A stretch of DNA of 64,000 nt from Vibrio pomeroyi (GTDB lineage Bacteria > Pseudomonadota > Gammaproteobacteria > Enterobacterales > Vibrionaceae). The first letter of the stretch is position 1, and each line of letters opens with the position of its first letter. The stretch covers positions 2,232,001 to 2,296,000 of the forward strand of contig NZ_AP025506.1 of assembly GCF_024347595.1 (NCBI RefSeq). Direction: 5' to 3'. The position numbers and the translations under genes are program-made. Below are positions 7,669 through 30,865 of this stretch, piece by piece. The notes under the pieces were generated by a model. The model was given only the letters and a program-made list of their open reading frames with translations. It was not told the DNA's origin and searched no databases.

Positions 7669-7721
7669 TATACAGGTGTATACAGTACTTTTCTGTAAAA
7701 ACCACTGTGTACACCTGTATA
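7669..7721. repeat. 17-base inverted repeat next to the microsatellite
   Basis: Arms 7669-7685 (TATACAGGTGTATACAG) and 7705-7721 (CTGTGTACACCTGTATA) are complementary over 17 bases with a single G-T pair, separated by 19 bases. It could form a hairpin or be a protein-binding site; it has no T tail. It abuts the octamer tract directly. Confidence 0.75.
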
Positions 7722-7879
7722 AAGCTCACATTTCTTCAACTTATGAGACAAAACAACAAATTCATTCGAATTTAATTTAGACAATAATTTCAATTACTTA
7801 AGTTAAAACCATCCCCTTACCTGTGCAAAATCGTCCAATAATCCCACAAAAAACGCTTGATCTTATAAGCAACAAAAAC

Positions 7880-7899
7880 TACTGTATACACATACAGCA
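7880..7899 (+). promoter_or_regulatory. LexA (SOS) box of sulA
   Basis: TACTGTATACACATACAGCA contains the required CTGT-N8-ACAG core at 7882-7897 and matches most of the enterobacterial/Vibrio consensus. It ends 19 bases before the sulA ATG, the usual place for LexA repression. Confidence 0.88.
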
Positions 7900-7918
7900 T
7901 GTATATAAGGACAGCAAA

Positions 7919-8326
7919 ATGATTCAAGCACACGTTAAAGCCCAACACTCTAGCCCGCTAGTTCACTGCGCATTTACATCAGTTTCTCGTAAAAGCAAAA
8001 ATTCAAACGAGGAAGCGTTGTTCGCAAGAATGGCGTTGCTGTCCAATCAACATCAGTGGTTGCTGTTTACAGCGCAAACACCAAGACCATCGGCTAAGCA
8101 GCTTAAGCAACACAACGTGTGCTGCGACCGCATTATTCACATGAAAGCCTCTCACCAGATGACGGAAGTTGAAACGGTTGAGAAAGCCATCCGTTCAAAA
8201 AATGCGAGTGCGATTGTTGCGAGCGCATCGATTGATCAGTTCAGCCAGCAATACCTAAGAACATTAGGAATGCGCTTTCAATGTGAAGTCTTCTTTATGG
8301 ATGCAAATTCAGAGCGCATTCACTAA
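7919..8326 (+). CDS. sulA: SOS cell-division inhibitor SulA
   Basis: The start at ATG 7919 is set by AAGGA 7 bases upstream and by the LexA box just before it; the open frame continues upstream to 7823 only by chance, across the operator. The 135-residue product shows the SulA core: N-Q-H-Q-W-L-L-F-T at 43-51, the segment V-E-T-V-E-K-A-I-R-S-K-N-A-S-A-I-V at 84-100 and the C-terminal C-E-V-F-F-M-D. It is shorter than E. coli SulA (169 aa), with a short N-terminus. SulA binds FtsZ and blocks septation while DNA is damaged. Single gene, followed by a GC-rich hairpin. Confidence 0.82.
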   Translation: MIQAHVKAQHSSPLVHCAFTSVSRKSKNSNEEALFARMALLSNQHQWLLFTAQTPRPSAKQLKQHNVCCDRIIHMKASHQMTEVETVEKAIRSKNASAIVASASIDQFSQQYLRTLGMRFQCEVFFMDANSERIH

Positions 8327-8378
8327 GCAACATAGCTCTGCTAGATAGTTCAGTAATATAGTCCAAACATACTGCCTT

Positions 8379-8431
8379 CCCCTGCCCTACAATTCACCAA
8401 TTTTTCAGCGGATGGTTAGGCGGGGGTTTTT
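8379..8431 (+). terminator. probable terminator after sulA
   Basis: CCCCTGCC (8379-8386) pairs with GGCGGGGG (8419-8426, one G-T pair) and a T run follows. The 32-base loop is long, so this is less certain than the other terminators. Confidence 0.5.
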
Positions 8432-8447
8432 ATTTGATGAATAGATT

Positions 8448-8463
8448 TAGCAATCGTTTGCTT
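8448..8463 (+). promoter_or_regulatory. PurR operator (PUR box) of purC
   Basis: TAGCAATCGTTTGCTT fits the PUR box pattern ANGCAANCGNTTNCNT at every fixed position except the first base. It lies just upstream of the purC -10 element. Confidence 0.75.
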
Positions 8464-8491
8464 TTTCTCTGGAAGCAAACAGTAGATTGGG

Positions 8492-8497
8492 TATAAT
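8492..8497 (+). promoter_or_regulatory. -10 element of the purC promoter
   Basis: A perfect TATAAT lies 66 bases before the purC start, downstream of the PurR box. The -35 is weak (best candidate around 8468-8474), so the exact promoter is an inference. Confidence 0.6.
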
Positions 8498-8563
8498 GCC
8501 CGTCTAATCATGTGCACACCGCACTTCTCTGTATGACGTTTGATAAAAGATAGGAATGTCTAA

Positions 8564-9667
8564 ATGAGCCTTGCTGATCAAGTTCTTGCCGTAAATGATG
8601 ACCTACCAATCCGTACTGACAAACCTGTCCACAGTGGCAAGGTTCGCTCAGTCTACTGGTTAACTGAAGAAGATAGCCAACGACTAATTAAAGAGAAAGG
8701 CTACGACGTAGCACCCGATGCGCCTCTAGCTATCATGGTGATCAGTGATCGTATCTCTGCGTTTGATTGTATCTGGCGCGGTGAAGGTAATCTTAAAGGT
8801 GTTCCAGGTAAGGGAGCGGCTCTGAATGCTATCTCTAACCACTGGTTCAAATTGTTTAAAGACAACGGCCTTGCTGACAGTCATATCCTTGATATCCCTC
8901 ATCCATTCGTATGGATTGTACAAAAAGCTCGCCCAGTAATGATTGAAGCGATTTGTCGTCAATACATTACAGGTTCTATGTGGCGTGCGTACGCGAACGG
9001 CGAACGTGAATTCTGCGGTATTGAGATGCCTGAAGGCCTAGAGAAAGACAAGAAGCTGCCTGAGCTACTCATCACGCCTTCTACTAAAGGGATTCTGAAA
9101 GGCATTCCTGGTGTACCAGAAGCTGACGATGTGAACATCACACGTAACAACATCGAAGATAACTTTGCAGCGTTCAACTTTACTCAAGCAAGTGACATCG
9201 CGCATTACGAAAAGCTACTAAAAGAAGGCTTCAACGTGATCAGCCAAGCACTGGCGAAAGTAGACCAAACCTTCGTTGATACCAAGTTTGAGTTTGGTTA
9301 CGTGAACGATGCTCAAGGCAAAGAGAAGCTAATCTACATGGACGAAGTCGGTACTCCAGATTCATCTCGTATTTGGGATACTCAGGAATACGACAATGGC
9401 AACATCGTTGAAAACTCGAAAGAGGGTTTCCGTCAGTTCTTGCTTAACTACTTCCCTGATGCAGACATTCTGTTGAACAAAGAACGTATGCCAGAGCGCG
9501 AAGCATTAGCGCGTGATAATGAACTTCCTTTGGACGCATTAATGTCGCTTTCTCGCACTTACCTTGATATCGCAGCGAAAATCACAGGTGCTGAGATTGT
9601 ATTGAGCGACAATCCGAAGCAAGAGATCATCGACGTATTACGTGCAGACTACGGACTGATCGATTAA
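8564..9667 (+). CDS. purC: phosphoribosylaminoimidazole-succinocarboxamide synthase
   Basis: A 367-residue SAICAR synthetase of the long form found in Vibrio. It joins CAIR and aspartate with ATP hydrolysis, step 8 of IMP biosynthesis, in the cytosol. The sequence begins with the ATP-loop region G-K-V-R-S-V-Y-W (near 25-32), has S-D-R-I-S-A-F-D (near 62-69), the CAIR-binding stretch [13 protein letters not shown] (near 128-140), and [11 protein letters not shown] near 265-275, all conserved in PurC. An AGGA ribosome site precedes the ATG. It is a single-gene unit with a PurR box and TATAAT upstream and a perfect terminator downstream, so control by purine supply is likely. Confidence 0.95.
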
Positions 9668-25773: not shown

Positions 25774-26194
25774 CGACTCCTTAATGATTGTTAATTAACT
25801 TTCGATATTTAACGTTTTGTTTACATAAAGGATACTTGAAGATCTTGCCAAATCAACATTAAACAATCATTTATCCCGTCAGATTTAATAATTAAGACAC
25901 TAAATCTAACCTGAAATCCAAAAGCAGTGTATAACACCAGAATAAAAGATGACCAACTCTTAAAACTAGCACACTCCACTAGCTAGTTATAAATCCCTAC
26001 AAATTTAGATTTAACGATATTATTAACTAGCAAGTGATGTTTCATATTGTGTCAGCCCTTTCGCTTCAATACGCCAGCCTCCTTGCATGAGTTCAGGCAT
26101 CATACTCGTCATCATTCATTTCTATGCTTTTGCACAGCGAAATACGACCTACCTATCAATTGCCAAGCTATTGATTATTTACACAACAAACTGA

Positions 26195-26461
26195 AATTGG
26201 TTAATTTATGAGTACGCCAGAATCCACACGCCTTTGCTTGCGCGTCTGGAACAGGTCGAGTTCGGGGGGAACTCGGCCGCCCCAAAGGTTTACTTCTTTT
26301 AATGGAGAATTGAGTATTCTTCCAATCTGGAAAGTGCTCTTAATTAAATGCGCGGGTAGGGTTTACTCAGTGTTTTCTTACGGCGAGAACATGAAGCGTT
26401 TGAAATCGACTATAGCGATGGACGTAACTTTGAGATCATCTGCAGGCACAAGCGTGTTTGA
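26195..26461 (+). pseudogene. possible decayed gene fragments, family unknown
   Basis: Two stretches read like protein but in interrupted frames. Fragment one (26195-26302) gives a 35-residue run including T-P-L-L-A-R-L-E-Q-V-E-F-G-G and ends at a stop. Fragment two (26360-26461) gives 33 residues including E-A-F-E-I-D-Y-S-D-G-R-N-F-E-I-I-C and also ends at a stop. The intervening 57 bases and the region before have stops in both frames. A 89-codon frame through the same bases (26208-26477) has implausible composition (Ser/Arg-rich). I cannot name a parent family. Confidence 0.22.
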
Positions 26462-26462
26462 T

Positions 26463-26488
26463 AAAGCGCGCCGATAACGGTGCGCTTT
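26463..26488. terminator. hairpin between gene debris and the large accessory gene
   Basis: AAAGCGCGCCG/CGGTGCGCTTT, an 11-bp stem with one G-T pair and an ATAA loop, lying 10 bases beyond the stop of the large minus-strand gene. The T tail is weak on both strands. Confidence 0.5.
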
Positions 26489-26498
26489 GCCTTTACTA

Positions 26499-29400
26499 TT
26501 ACTTCTTCTCAGACTGAGGCAACGTCAGATCAATTAGAATATGATATATAGAGATTTCTTTACCGCCACGAAATCTTGACTCTACAGTACAAAAATACTC
26601 AGAACCACGATCAAGCCTTTTTAGCTGATGACTTTGGGTATTTATAACATCAAACCCATTGTATTGTTCGCTTTTGATATGCTCACAATAATCATTAACT
26701 TTTGTACTGAATTTCTCGAAATAGCAATAAGATACGATAAAAACTGGAGATACGCTTTCACGGTCATATTTAGTGATTTTATTAAGATGTTTGTTTATCA
26801 CGGTTTTATCAATGGATGTAAGATTCAATGCTTCAAATATTGATATAGATGAACTTTGAGAATCACGGATTAAACCATCAGTTTCACCTACATTTTTATT
26901 ACTCTCAGCAGAACCTATGCGTGCTTGATCAGATAACTCAATTGAAAAACTAGACATTTTTTGATTAAAAAGAGATGCAAACCAGTCATTGATAGAATTT
27001 TCATCTTTATTATTGATTAACTTCTCTAAATTTCTCCCTCTCTTTAATATTTCCTTTAAGCAAGAAAAAACTTGATTGTAGAGAAAATCTTCCATTCTAG
27101 TTTCAGAATCATTTGAGACTATCTTAGCTAAGTCAGATATAGGTTTTCTAATTATTTCATTATAAATCATTCTAAGTTCATCATTAGATTTGTTAGAAAA
27201 TAAAACTTGACTTTTTATCTTCTCAATTTGTAGTGAGCTTGTAGAGTTCTCAATTTCAATTTCAATCTCTGTAATCTCTTGCTCCAACGCCTGATCGTTT
27301 AACTCAACTGAATGATATTTTTTATAGTCTTCGAGAAGTTTCAGTGCTGATTTGAAGTTATCCTTTGCACGAAGCGATTTGCAATATGTAATCGTAATTG
27401 AACGATAAAATTTTTCTGACCGAACTAACTTTGAACATTCAGCATCTACTTCATTGAAGTTACCTGAAAGCAACAGAGCATGTAGATAATCTGACTTATT
27501 TTTTAATGACAAGGTGTCAATATTAAAGTTCTCTTGGCTTGCTTTGTATTCTTTAATTAATATTCTATAATTATCATTATCAGACTTGCTTTTGATCAAC
27601 TCCTGAAGTTTTGAAGTGAATACAAGATGAGAAAACATAGAAGATTTGTGTTCTTTGTATAACTGTTCAAATATTTGTTTTGAATTTTCAGGCTCATCAT
27701 TTAACTTAATCAAACCAACTATATATCGTCTGAATAAATCTACTTCTTTGTGCCAATCGTTTTTATTATCTTGGTAAGGTTTTTTCTGCTCTAAATCAGG
27801 TTGAGATATTTCATTGATTAGTTTGGTTTTATCTTCACATGAATCAGAAGAGTAAAATATCCTTAAAATTTTGTATTTATAATCGAAAACAGACCATTGT
27901 TCTATCGTTTCTTTGAATCGTTTATCCTGTCTCCAAGGATGATTCTCTATAAATTCGTTAGCGGCGGTTAATGCCACGTTAGCTATGTCTAGTTTATTTT
28001 CTTCTAATGCCAACAGAAACGATTTTTCAATGTCAGGTAAATTATTTTTATCTAATTCCCAGTTGTTACGATGTTCAACTTTCTCTGCTACCTTATTTCT
28101 TCTTTCTTGCTTAGATGCGTTAGAGTATAGAGACATCATCGCATCTAATGGTGCATGCTCTGAAATGCACAACATGATTTCGTCAAATGCAGCTTCATCG
28201 AAGTCGTTAATTACTTTGGTAAACTTAGACCATAAATCGTACTTCTCACCAGAGAAATGATTTATAAAAACAGGGATTTCAACATCTTCTGACTCGAAAC
28301 CGACACTTTTTACTATATCTAATAATACTCTTTGAATTTTATTCTTGTTCGCATTTGATAGAGAATGTAAGTTAATGAGAACTTGAATATAGGATCTAAT
28401 CGATTGCATATAATAAATTGAATTTTTATTATCTTCGAAGAAGAATCCTTTAACTAGTTCTCTGATGGATGGTTTTAAGTTGATAAAGCTATCTATTACG
28501 CTTTCATTATTACATACTTCCCAATTAAGGCTGTCATAAAAATCATCAGAGTTCAAACAATGAGAGTCATGATTTAGGCTAAAATTAAAATACTTTTCAT
28601 ACTCAATATAAATCTCTTCACTTAGTATTAATGATATATCTCCCAGTTTATTTCCATGTAAACTAACAGATATATCGGCAAACAAGAATAATAAGTAAAT
28701 TGTATAGCAAGGCCAAGTACCAGATACATCCATATTTTTTAAATTCTGGATCAAAGCCGCTGATACTTTTGTAAACTCTTCAGGGGATAGTTTATTTACA
28801 ATATTTTCAACTAAAACCTTTTCGAATTGATTACTATCTCTACTATCTCCAACGTAATCTTTAGCAAACGAAATAATAAGTGATGAAAGTTCGTATTCTT
28901 TGTTATGGGTCATTGAAACTTTAATTATCGCATCTGCTAATATCTTAGATATATTTGATTTTACTTCTATGAAAGAAACTTCATTAGAGTGATATTTTCT
29001 TTTTACCTTTTTTATTAAATTTAATGTTCCAACTTCAAAGTAATTTTCTCGAGATAGCAGATAGAGATCATAAGTGTTGTCTTTTAGATAGTTGGGGATT
29101 ACATTTATTAAGTAGTGTCTAAGAGTTTCATTTTTTTGAGACTCACCGAGTAGATACTCGGTGTATTCTTTACTTATAACCTTCTGATAGTCGAAGAGTA
29201 AATCATTTCTAACTATAAACAATAATGCCGACATGATTTCATCGTCAAAAAACATTAAGTGGTTGAGATGATTTCCCAAATTAACTAACTCTAAGTTATT
29301 CCTGAACTTGTTTTTATTATTTAGGTTGTATAAACTTCGAACTTCATCAATAGTCAAAGAAGTACGCGTGGTGGTATCTCTATTAGTATTTGATGTATCA

Positions 29401-30275
29401 GATTCAGGACCTAAATTAAAGTTAATATGAGTAGTGGTTGCTATGAGGTTTGCATCTAAATATCTATGTGACCGTAATATATTCTGAAATTTCCCAAACG
29501 AATATTTAAGTAATTCAGAGTTATTAATTATATCAATACATATTTCAGAAAATATTTTTCTTTCTTCAATGGAGAGCGTTGATAAGCTTGGTGGTGAAAC
29601 TAAATCAGAAAATAAAATCTTTACATTATTATGCCTATTCAAGAATTCGCTTCGATTAGTTGAATTGATGATTTTTTTCCAATAATACTTAGATACTAAT
29701 GTTTTGATACCTCTATCTTCTGATGAAAATTCGATATGATGATAATCAGATTCTTCAGAAACATTTAGAGTGCATTTTTTAAACTGGTAGTCGGCAGGAA
29801 CAATAGTTGAATACACTTCCTTATCAATACCTAGTTTTACGGTTTGGAAATCATCTCTTGAGTAAACTATATCTTTTAATGAACGAGCAAAAGATAGTAA
29901 GGGTTTGATGGTTTCGTGTATATATTCATCGTGACGACTACTAGGCAGCATTGCACTAACTCTAAGCCAGTCGTGTTCGAAAAAGATAATACCCAGCTCT
30001 TCTAGCAAATCAAAGTCAAAGTTTTCAGCTATGTACCTGTCACTACCATCTATTGTCTTCCAACTAACTTCTCCTGAATGCAACTTTTTTACAAACTCAC
30101 GAGTCAATTTCGGGCTTTTTAACTTCATGTTTAAGAGTAACTCAGAAACATAGTTTGCTTCAGTATGAGCGACAATATCAAAAATTGGAATATTGGTATT
30201 ATGCTGTTGATATTGATCAAGGTCTGCTAGAAGCTCGTTTAGTTCTTTGAGCGGTAATTGGTTGTTCTGATACAT
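26499..30275 (-). CDS. large helical-repeat accessory protein with nuclease-like C-terminal domain, candidate defence protein
   Basis: About 1258 residues from the ATG at 30275 (GGAAAG upstream); the open frame extends 20 codons further without a ribosome site. I do not recognise the full-length family. The bulk is alpha-helical, with TPR-like helical pairs near 925-990 (L-H-A-L-L-L-S-G-N-F-N-E-V and S-A-L-K-L-L-E-D-Y). No P-loop or other NTPase motif, signal peptide or membrane helix is visible. The last 170 residues look like a C-terminal domain I associate with phage-defence proteins: G-E-T-D-G (1130-1134), I-F-E-A-L (1146-1150), N-K-H-L-N-K and a hydrophobic F-I-V-S-Y strand, a pattern recalling PD-(D/E)xK nucleases with a changed last residue. 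The gene is strongly AT-rich (18 of 60 bases G+C at 28861-28920, against 32 of 60 in trxB at 31501-31560), a sign of transfer. It follows the 128-aa gene on the same strand, 123 bases apart. Confidence 0.75.
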   Translation of the reverse strand: MYQNNQLPLKELNELLADLDQYQQHNTNIPIFDIVAHTEANYVSELLLNMKLKSPKLTREFVKKLHSGEVSWKTIDGSDRYIAENFDFDLLEELGIIFFEHDWLRVSAMLPSSRHDEYIHETIKPLLSFARSLKDIVYSRDDFQTVKLGIDKEVYSTIVPADYQFKKCTLNVSEESDYHHIEFSSEDRGIKTLVSKYYWKKIINSTNRSEFLNRHNNVKILFSDLVSPPSLSTLSIEERKIFSEICIDIINNSELLKYSFGKFQNILRSHRYLDANLIATTTHINFNLGPESDTSNTNRDTTTRTSLTIDEVRSLYNLNNKNKFRNNLELVNLGNHLNHLMFFDDEIMSALLFIVRNDLLFDYQKVISKEYTEYLLGESQKNETLRHYLINVIPNYLKDNTYDLYLLSRENYFEVGTLNLIKKVKRKYHSNEVSFIEVKSNISKILADAIIKVSMTHNKEYELSSLIISFAKDYVGDSRDSNQFEKVLVENIVNKLSPEEFTKVSAALIQNLKNMDVSGTWPCYTIYLLFLFADISVSLHGNKLGDISLILSEEIYIEYEKYFNFSLNHDSHCLNSDDFYDSLNWEVCNNESVIDSFINLKPSIRELVKGFFFEDNKNSIYYMQSIRSYIQVLINLHSLSNANKNKIQRVLLDIVKSVGFESEDVEIPVFINHFSGEKYDLWSKFTKVINDFDEAAFDEIMLCISEHAPLDAMMSLYSNASKQERRNKVAEKVEHRNNWELDKNNLPDIEKSFLLALEENKLDIANVALTAANEFIENHPWRQDKRFKETIEQWSVFDYKYKILRIFYSSDSCEDKTKLINEISQPDLEQKKPYQDNKNDWHKEVDLFRRYIVGLIKLNDEPENSKQIFEQLYKEHKSSMFSHLVFTSKLQELIKSKSDNDNYRILIKEYKASQENFNIDTLSLKNKSDYLHALLLSGNFNEVDAECSKLVRSEKFYRSITITYCKSLRAKDNFKSALKLLEDYKKYHSVELNDQALEQEITEIEIEIENSTSSLQIEKIKSQVLFSNKSNDELRMIYNEIIRKPISDLAKIVSNDSETRMEDFLYNQVFSCLKEILKRGRNLEKLINNKDENSINDWFASLFNQKMSSFSIELSDQARIGSAESNKNVGETDGLIRDSQSSSISIFEALNLTSIDKTVINKHLNKITKYDRESVSPVFIVSYCYFEKFSTKVNDYCEHIKSEQYNGFDVINTQSHQLKRLDRGSEYFCTVESRFRGGKEISIYHILIDLTLPQSEKK

Positions 30276-30303
30276 AGCACTTTCCACTAACACAAGATGT
30301 TGA

Positions 30304-30330
30304 TATACATACAGTATCTTACTATGTATA
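30304..30330. promoter_or_regulatory. palindromic site upstream of the large accessory gene
   Basis: TATACATA (30304-30311) and TATGTATA (30323-30330) are perfect inverted arms around an 11-base centre, 29-55 bases before the start codon at 30275. Within it the minus strand reads TACTGTATGTATAT, one good LexA half-site, but the other half is missing. Probable operator or promoter region. Confidence 0.4.
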
Positions 30331-30367
30331 TACAATTACTCCAATGTTCTGATTTGGTTTTATCCAA

Positions 30368-30401
30368 TAGTGTGTAGAGCCTACAAGGTCTCTACACACT
30401 A
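30368..30401 (-). other. perfect hairpin over the stop codon of the 128-aa gene
   Basis: TAGTGTGTAGAG (30368-30379) and CTCTACACACTA (30390-30401) form a perfect 12-bp stem with a 10-base loop. On the minus strand the 5' arm starts with the TAG stop codon of the small gene. There is no T run, so it is more likely an attenuator, processing site or translational switch than a full terminator. Confidence 0.7.
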
Positions 30402-30785
30402 AAACATACAAGCTTCTTCAAGGTCGATTTCAAAATCAACGGGCGGTAGGTTTGCTAGATGCTTGTTCGTAGCATTCAGTAGTTCGACCTTCGCGGACTT
30501 CCCTACTTCGTTTGTGTAGATAGTCGCTAGATAAAGTTTGTCTGAACGGTGGAATGCGGCGTGAAAGCTCACTTCTTTGTTTAACAAGCTGGCTAGCAAT
30601 GGTTTGGTTACCGGAATGTAAGCCCACTTAATGCACTGGCCGTTGTCATAGTCCCCACTCCAATACACCATAAACCTTTGGGTGTTTTCATTCTTAACCG
30701 AGAAACACTTCGGTCCTAAGACGTCTTGATACACTTCCAGTAGTTCCAATTTACCTAGCTGTGTGCCTGTTGGGAGTAAGTTCAT
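30399..30785 (-). CDS. small accessory protein, 128 aa, possibly DUF6575-like
   Basis: A soluble beta-rich protein that opens with L-L-P-T-G-T-Q-L-G-K-L-E-L-L-E-V-Y-Q, then C-F-S-V-K-N, Y-W-S-G-D-Y, W-A-Y-I-P-V-T and a C-terminal acidic strand. This order resembles the DUF6575 family as I remember it; the match is by memory and uncertain. No catalytic motif is evident. GAGGA lies 7 bases before the ATG. It is the first gene of the two-gene cassette with the 1258-residue protein and lies 61 bases downstream of a LexA box, so it should be induced by DNA damage. A small first gene before a large effector suggests a sensor, inhibitor or activator of the large protein; this is inference. Confidence 0.7.
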   Translation of the reverse strand: MNLLPTGTQLGKLELLEVYQDVLGPKCFSVKNENTQRFMVYWSGDYDNGQCIKWAYIPVTKPLLASLLNKEVSFHAAFHRSDKLYLATIYTNEVGKSAKVELLNATNKHLANLPPVDFEIDLEEACMF

Positions 30786-30845
30786 TGCTCGTTCCTCATG
30801 TTTCTAACGTTGCTATCAAACATTGCGAATAATCTTACAATTAAA

Positions 30846-30865
30846 TACTGTTTTTATATACAGTT
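30846..30865 (-). promoter_or_regulatory. LexA (SOS) box upstream of the accessory cassette
   Basis: TACTGTTTTTATATACAGTT matches the consensus TACTGTATATATATACAGTA at 17 of 20 positions, with the obligatory CTGT-N8-ACAG core intact. It lies 61 bases before the ATG of the 128-aa gene and would overlap the -35 region of a promoter with TAAGAT as -10 (minus strand). The trxB start is more than 230 bases away in the other direction. Confidence 0.8.

Follow-up and report, generated by a model that had tools for sequence, protein, structure and literature searches.

We have analysed a stretch of 64,000 nucleotides from Vibrio pomeroyi (contig NZ_AP025506.1, positions 2,232,001 to 2,296,000; hereafter the window), and in particular two minus-strand genes in it, for proteins of 128 and 1258 amino acids (aa), that are flanked by trxB on one side and a dioxygenase/aminotransferase pair on the other. 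These flanking names are those of an earlier annotation made from the letters alone, called here the sequence-only reading. Comparison across genomes gives good support for the stretch between the small gene, of DUF6575 type, and the dioxygenase operon being a defence hotspot of splendidus-type vibrios. Different genomes have exchanged the content of this site, relatives of the large gene are found in the company of defence genes in other places, and the large protein is predicted to consist of a superhelix and a restriction-endonuclease-like end. We consider it probable that the 1258-aa gene is this strain's cargo at the hotspot, combining a sensing superhelix with a nuclease, and that the small gene is independent of it. 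The trigger sensed by the superhelix would be a phage product or some infection-induced change, and phage or cellular nucleic acid would then be attacked by the unleashed C-terminal nuclease. Preceded by a LexA box, the small gene would mark one edge of the site and be neither sensor nor antitoxin of the large protein.

Exchange of content beside trxB

The 12 genomes in which the small gene is linked to trxB all have trxB and the dioxygenase as the two flanks of the site, and the content between them differs in each. Nine of these genomes have one to five open reading frames (ORFs) of at least 90 aa at the site, while the cargo amounts to about 16 kb in G081 and 23 kb in G029, and to about 0.3 kb with no ORF of at least 90 aa in G171. 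When 56 cargo ORFs were compared between genomes, a single pair matched (L047 and L051, 82% over 80 residues), and this pair adjoins the dioxygenase, in the margin of the site. The GC content of the cargo spans is 0.32-0.43. The comparison of the trxB flank in related Vibrio, which the sequence-only reading had proposed, shows conserved flanks with exchanged content, and its accessory insertion between conserved genes is supported.

The small-gene-side (left) boundary lies directly behind the stop codon of the small gene, near a TTGGA(C/T)A motif. This motif reads TTGGATA in the window, TTGGACA in six of the nine other copies aligned and TTTGGCA in L042, and it differs in L047 and L050; L048 was not included. 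The dioxygenase-side (right) boundary consists of a hairpin and then about 500 conserved bases up to the dioxygenase in nine of the ten loci aligned, a set in which L066 covers the gene-proximal part only and from which the more distant species L048 and L050 were left out. In the window the variable margin of the hotspot (Table 1) contains a further hairpin (26462-26489), which lies just past the stop codon of the large gene and is terminator-like on the plus strand according to the terminator scan. This margin had been described as gene debris at the left of the locus. The corresponding margins of the eight further loci that extend this far seem to align with it, and it is a single copy in its own genome; debris was rejected, and a hotspot edge is the more likely reading.

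Defence genes were recognised in the site content of four genomes, by PADLOC in G139 and G203 and by the type of Pfam domain in G014 and G212, with ten proteins from seven genomes scanned individually. The 865-aa protein of G139 is PDC-S06 (expectation value, E, of 0, PADLOC), and G203 has a 533-aa NsnB/PDC-M55A-like protein (8e-45) with an AAA_15 match (7e-25), followed by a 366-aa protein that matches PDC-M55B at 5.8e-5. An 856-aa protein in G014 contains a NACHT domain (3e-7, above the cut-off) and a sub-threshold Mrr match (0.004), and G212 has an ORC-CDC6-like ATPase (3e-11) with a weak HEPN match (0.003). For the cargo of G015 (two proteins), G023 and G057 the individual scans gave no match. 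When 48 cargo ORFs no shorter than 110 aa were scanned together, DrmD (4e-23) and PbeA (5e-13) were among the matches listed (25 of 76 families); these matches are not tied to individual members, and many of the families are ATPase cross-matches.

Literature searches for Vibrio phage-defence hotspots at trxB gave no match, and other searches returned nothing on this locus among the matches listed. The main text of a 2026 V. crassostreae study (PMC13230959) contains neither 'trxB' nor 'thioredoxin'.

The two ORFs in the window have the sizes and the 123-base spacing given in the sequence-only reading; for the large gene the ORF listing also has an upstream TTG start, which would yield 1278 aa. 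The claim that both genes are AT-rich holds for the large gene, with GC and third-position GC of 0.310 and 0.271, but not for the small gene (0.444 and 0.512); trxB and the dioxygenase have GC values of 0.480 and 0.458. The assignment to Vibrio agrees with the species named on hits, V. crassostreae, V. splendidus and V. atlanticus.

A possible second swap site was also observed, where L056 (G203), L052 (G039) and L049 (G213) share flanking ORFs. L056 has there an NsnB-like protein and a nuclease-domain protein, L052 a 471-aa DUF6575 protein and a NACHT/SNaCT1 protein, and L049 a small-gene copy that has its LexA box and one internal stop.

Table 1. Features of the locus in window coordinates
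Feature	Position	Strand	Basis and remarks
Right (dioxygenase-side) conserved flank	25774..26283		Conserved hairpin (CGAGTTCCCCCCGAACTCG, minus strand) at inner end
Variable right margin of hotspot	26284..26490		Aligned loci; hairpin 26462-26489
C-terminal restriction-endonuclease-like domain (predicted), residues 1055-1258	26502..27113	minus	Models, fold comparison, conserved residues
Large gene, 1258 aa from ATG, candidate single-gene defence protein	26499..30275	minus	ORF listing, homologues, models
Upstream region of large gene, putative promoter	30276..30360	minus	ATACATAGTAAGATACT common with Colwellia relative L023
Strong hairpin	30369..30400	minus	Overlaps small-gene stop codon; no T run; unlisted by terminator scan
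Small gene, 128 aa	30399..30785	minus	ORF listing; apparently host-like gene at hotspot edge, outside cargo
Putative LexA box, TACTGTTTTTATATACAGTT	30846..30865		Kept intact in all 12 copies having the 5' end

Relation between the small and the large gene

The sequence-only reading had proposed a single SOS-induced operon, with the 128-aa protein, assigned here to DUF6575, as a sensor of damage or as a restraint on the large effector. The common strand, the distance of 123 bases and a LexA box ahead of the first gene are in its favour. However, both intact genes occur together in one of 227 Vibrio genomes, and the pair was found nowhere else in the genomes searched. An intact large gene is missing in 12 of the 13 genomes with the short small gene, of which 11 retain the box, and in G203 the small gene has lost its 5' half and the C-terminal domain of the large protein is found by itself, elsewhere in the genome. 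Conversely, the large family is present without the small gene in G200 and G135, and tblastn gave no small-gene relatives in 17 large-family loci from other genera. Each gene thus occurs without the other, and the differing GC, the purifying selection on the small gene irrespective of the cargo and the upstream sequence that the large gene shares with a Colwellia relative argue in the same direction. The operon was rejected on co-occurrence, composition and conservation, and we consider it very improbable; the independence of the two genes is well supported by these comparisons.

The region upstream of the large gene would contain a separate promoter for it. It has ATACATAGTAAGATACT, spotted by eye, in common with the 62%-identical Colwellia relative L023, and this sequence is not in the others among the 16 upstream regions compared. 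A LexA core is absent upstream of the Colwellia relative. A second LexA box ahead of the large gene was considered and rejected, since the best match has 14/20, lacks the ACAG half and is not shared by the Colwellia relative; no site of this type stood out in the other 14 loci compared.

The hairpin between the genes has no U tract, a point for the operon, and therefore some SOS read-through from the small into the large gene is conceivable in this strain. As a point against the box, the bare pattern TACTGT-N8-ACAG has 13 matches genome-wide, as does the reversed control; motif rarity was accordingly dropped as proof of the box, since the pattern is not enriched. What supports a real, though putative, LexA site is conservation. 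The box matches 17 of 20 bases of the LexA consensus, has a complete CTGT-N8-ACAG core, as described earlier, and ends 60 bases ahead of the small-gene ATG. It is kept in the window and L040-L050, the 12 copies with a 5' end, and its identity to the window copy is 85-100% in 11 of 11 relatives, compared to 35-82% in the 40 bases before it and 65-90% in the 40 after (all ungapped). The two long-form copies tested have no LexA box (best 11/20). Only two sites in the window score at least 15. The other one (7880-7899), also with 17/20, is ahead of an ORF (7823-8326, plus strand) that looks like the cell-division inhibitor SulA, and it could serve as a natural positive control.

The small protein matches DUF6575 (PF20215) with 74.5 bits, against a curated cut-off of 26.6, spanning positions 1-123 of 218 only, so that the domain is incomplete. 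It also has a weak match to PADLOC PD-T4-10_B (E 2.5e-5, profile positions 28-99 of 353 only). No phage record matched, and no solved-structure relative was found by sequence at E up to 1. Relatives in three cases from other genera have open frames of 430-434 aa, and in the genus Vibrio there are matches in 15 of 227 genomes, of which 13 have the short form and G039 and G204 the long form only; G057 has an additional long-form DUF6575 copy as a second match. The short form lies near trxB in 12 of the 13 genomes, the window's included, and the thirteenth copy (G213) has one internal stop and different neighbours on an 8-kb contig. In G203 (L051), where the box is lost together with the 5' half, about the last 62 residues are left between the cargo pair and trxB. 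The ratio of nonsynonymous to synonymous substitution rates is 0.05-0.10 between the window copy and eight close copies, the synonymous rate to a ninth (L050) being saturated. This points to strong purifying selection whatever the cargo, and the small gene appears to be a conserved host-like gene at the hotspot edge rather than part of the cargo.

Alternatively, the small gene could be the leftover N-terminal part of a PD-T4-10B-like toxin, now acting as an SOS-induced decoy or immunity factor against full-length DUF6575 proteins. The match to the first 123 positions of the domain, set against the long frames in other genera, would fit this, as would the strong purifying selection and the weak match to PD-T4-10_B, the toxin of a known toxin-antitoxin defence system; the last point favours the operon as well. 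However, PD-T4-10A matches neither the two genes nor, at E 1e-5, any of the 46 other window ORFs of at least 110 aa, and the proposal says nothing on the large gene. We regard it as rather improbable, and retain the small gene as an independent host-side neighbour.

In G139 and G023 (L041, L046 with L067, L068), trxB is separated from the small gene by a few further genes; insertions are thus apparently accepted on either side of the small gene. In G057 (L053, 8448-10095, contig C2), a 420-aa DUF6575 protein has, four bases ahead, a 126-aa ORF that gave no Pfam match. The arrangement recalls PD-T4-10 with its two genes.

The large protein and its family

The profile searches suggested for both proteins gave a family, DUF6575, for the small one only. 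The large protein has no Pfam match above the cut-off and no NCBIfam match, and neither it nor its C-terminal domain matches a PADLOC 2.0.0 family at E up to 1. A protein-database search, scoring the best 7991 candidates by shared words, gave at least 25 matches including itself; the others are 88% to 23% identical at 69-100% query coverage and, where named, are 'hypothetical' or 'uncharacterized'. The family occurs in four of 227 Vibrio genomes (its own, G200, G135 in two pieces, and G203 with the C-terminal domain only), in two of 197 in a Vibrionaceae-level sample, both already among the genus matches, and in six of 394 in an order sample, four of them new. A contig search confirmed nothing with the single protein as query, and with an alignment it gave 17 loci, full-length or partial, in Colwellia, Dyella, Citrobacter, Acinetobacter, Pseudomonas, Comamonas and others, including a Saprospiraceae contig (L039) with the C-terminal domain only. 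Distant relatives are carried by five plasmid records; phage records gave no match to the large protein, nor did E. coli genomes to the DNA of the Citrobacter relative.

Neighbours were collected on both sides of 21 large-family loci, taking at most three ORFs per side with a minimum length of 110 aa, which gave 103 ORFs; L036, a near-duplicate of L035, was left out, as were L039 and L062 (the contig of L030). In PADLOC these ORFs match 125 families, most by single members, and the best 25 listed include Drt4 (1e-235), ThsA (7e-196), ThsB (7e-84), HORMA (4e-80), CapP (4e-62, two members), PDC-M68B (2e-52, two), CapH (1e-32, two) and RmrA (three). The best 25 of 89 Pfam families include two ABC-3C CTD12 proteins, and also transposases, LysR regulators and housekeeping genes. 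When neighbours were scanned singly, the gene closest to the large one on one side proved to be PDC-M68B in both L054 and L061, with Drt4 near the large gene in L054; the scanned neighbours of L064, L023 and L035 gave no match. As a control, 46 core ORFs of the window matched 14 PADLOC families, mad3, SspA, DndA, ZorB, CARF3, Cas3 and SduA among them, with a best E of 2.3e-30, which we read as housekeeping cross-matches. In L035 (Pseudomonas baetica, 7713-9140) a nuclease-like domain is followed in the same ORF by an MvaT-type DNA-binding domain (E 7e-18); this ORF looks like a rearranged piece of a large-family gene.

It is conceivable that the large protein is a nuclease/helical-repeat protein with no defence role, acting in DNA repair, plasmid or element maintenance, or mobile-element conflict. 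Some neighbours are of transposase or relaxase type (rve with four members, TraI_2 with one), and the five plasmid records would also be in line with such a role. Against it, the neighbour set holds Thoeris, CBASS, DRT and ABC-3C genes, and the nuclease-like domain is shared with proteins beside an ATPase and an Argonaute. We judge a non-defence role unlikely. The location provides a strong inference of defence function, and the candidate undescribed defence gene of the sequence-only reading is supported for the large gene; that the family is undescribed rests on the literature searches together with Pfam, PADLOC and NCBIfam.

The structure prediction that had been called for gives a helical superhelix, TPR-like at about residues 678-1018, and a C-terminal PD-(D/E)XK-like domain (about 1055-1258). 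Since a fold search with the whole model listed mainly helical-repeat proteins, the C-terminal domain was modelled alone, and this predicted model shows the restriction-endonuclease-like fold. E1092, D1133, E1148, H1163 and K1166 are invariant, with D1133 and E1148 present in 41 of 41 aligned rows. The fold scores are only moderately above the background stated for the tool, which slightly lowers our confidence in the overall reading. Instead of a catalytic lysine or glutamine, all 41 rows have F, L or M at the position two after E1148. The domain is therefore assigned by fold only. Its nuclease action would be suggested by this fold and by the conserved residues, among which the lysine is atypical: K1166 belongs to the next helix and may replace the usual one. 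The protein has no Walker A motif and two loose R-x(4-6)-H matches, at residues 59 and 114. No solved-structure relatives were found by sequence for the large family or for protein P0043 at E up to 1.

Domain reuse and comparison with known systems

The C-terminal domain was also met in two other settings, with one case each. In G203 (L056), a 583-aa protein matching NsnB (8e-51) and PDC-M55A is directly followed by a 335-aa protein, the C-terminal part of which is 28% identical to that of the large protein over 160 positions (E 2e-13, single comparison). In L039 the domain is found in a 380-aa ORF (31% identity over 114 positions, E 1e-11, single comparison), which shares 13 bases with a 279-aa ORF whose match is to the C-terminal part of prokaryotic Argonautes (6.7e-85). 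It is possible, although we hold this only tentatively, that the domain represents a new PD-(D/E)XK branch and serves as a portable effector nuclease, which evolution has combined with three sensors (superhelix, NsnB-like ATPase and Argonaute), and that the large family is a new single-gene, NTPase-free system. The branch would be recognised by the invariant E, G-x-x-D, EA and HxxK and by a lysine that has shifted to the following helix.

What had been guessed to be one two-gene SOS system becomes in this way two separate objects. One is an unnamed proteobacterial protein family that resembles a one-gene defence system, and its nuclease-like domain would link three possible sensor types through one effector. 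The other is the site of exchange next to trxB, where further systems of splendidus-type vibrios can be searched for. More generally, the proximity of an SOS box to a defence gene is not enough to conclude that the gene is under SOS control.

In Pseudomonas aeruginosa, hotspots bounded by core genes have already been described. Its core defense hotspots cDHS1 and cDHS2 resemble the Vibrio site in that conserved core genes enclose a variable set of defence genes, that the GC content within is low and that no single mobilising element is evident (PMC10250203). The Vibrio site differs in genus and flanking genes, in having a DUF6575 gene with a LexA box at its edge, and in its cargo, which is often one or two genes.

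For the small protein, the nearest known system is PD-T4-10. In the passages available, PMC9519451 lists DUF6575 among new defence domains and describes PD-T4-10B as a toxin neutralised by PD-T4-10A; they do not state that PD-T4-10B carries DUF6575, a link that rests on the weak PADLOC match. Unlike that system, the small gene lacks the full-length toxin and an overlapping antitoxin ORF, and it has a LexA box and trxB upstream.

The large protein shares its type of C-terminal domain with the NsnB-like/PDC-M55A ATPase operons, as seen in the 335-aa protein of G203, but it has no ATPase partner and brings its own superhelix. With the PD-(D/E)XK nucleases OkrAI, BglII, McrC, NucC, Card1 and SduA it shares the predicted fold, D1133 and E1148 being invariant in the large family. 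Unlike these, it has no lysine or glutamine two residues after the glutamate, has the invariant H1163 and K1166 in the next helix, joins the domain to a superhelix of about 1000 residues, and has no Walker A motif.

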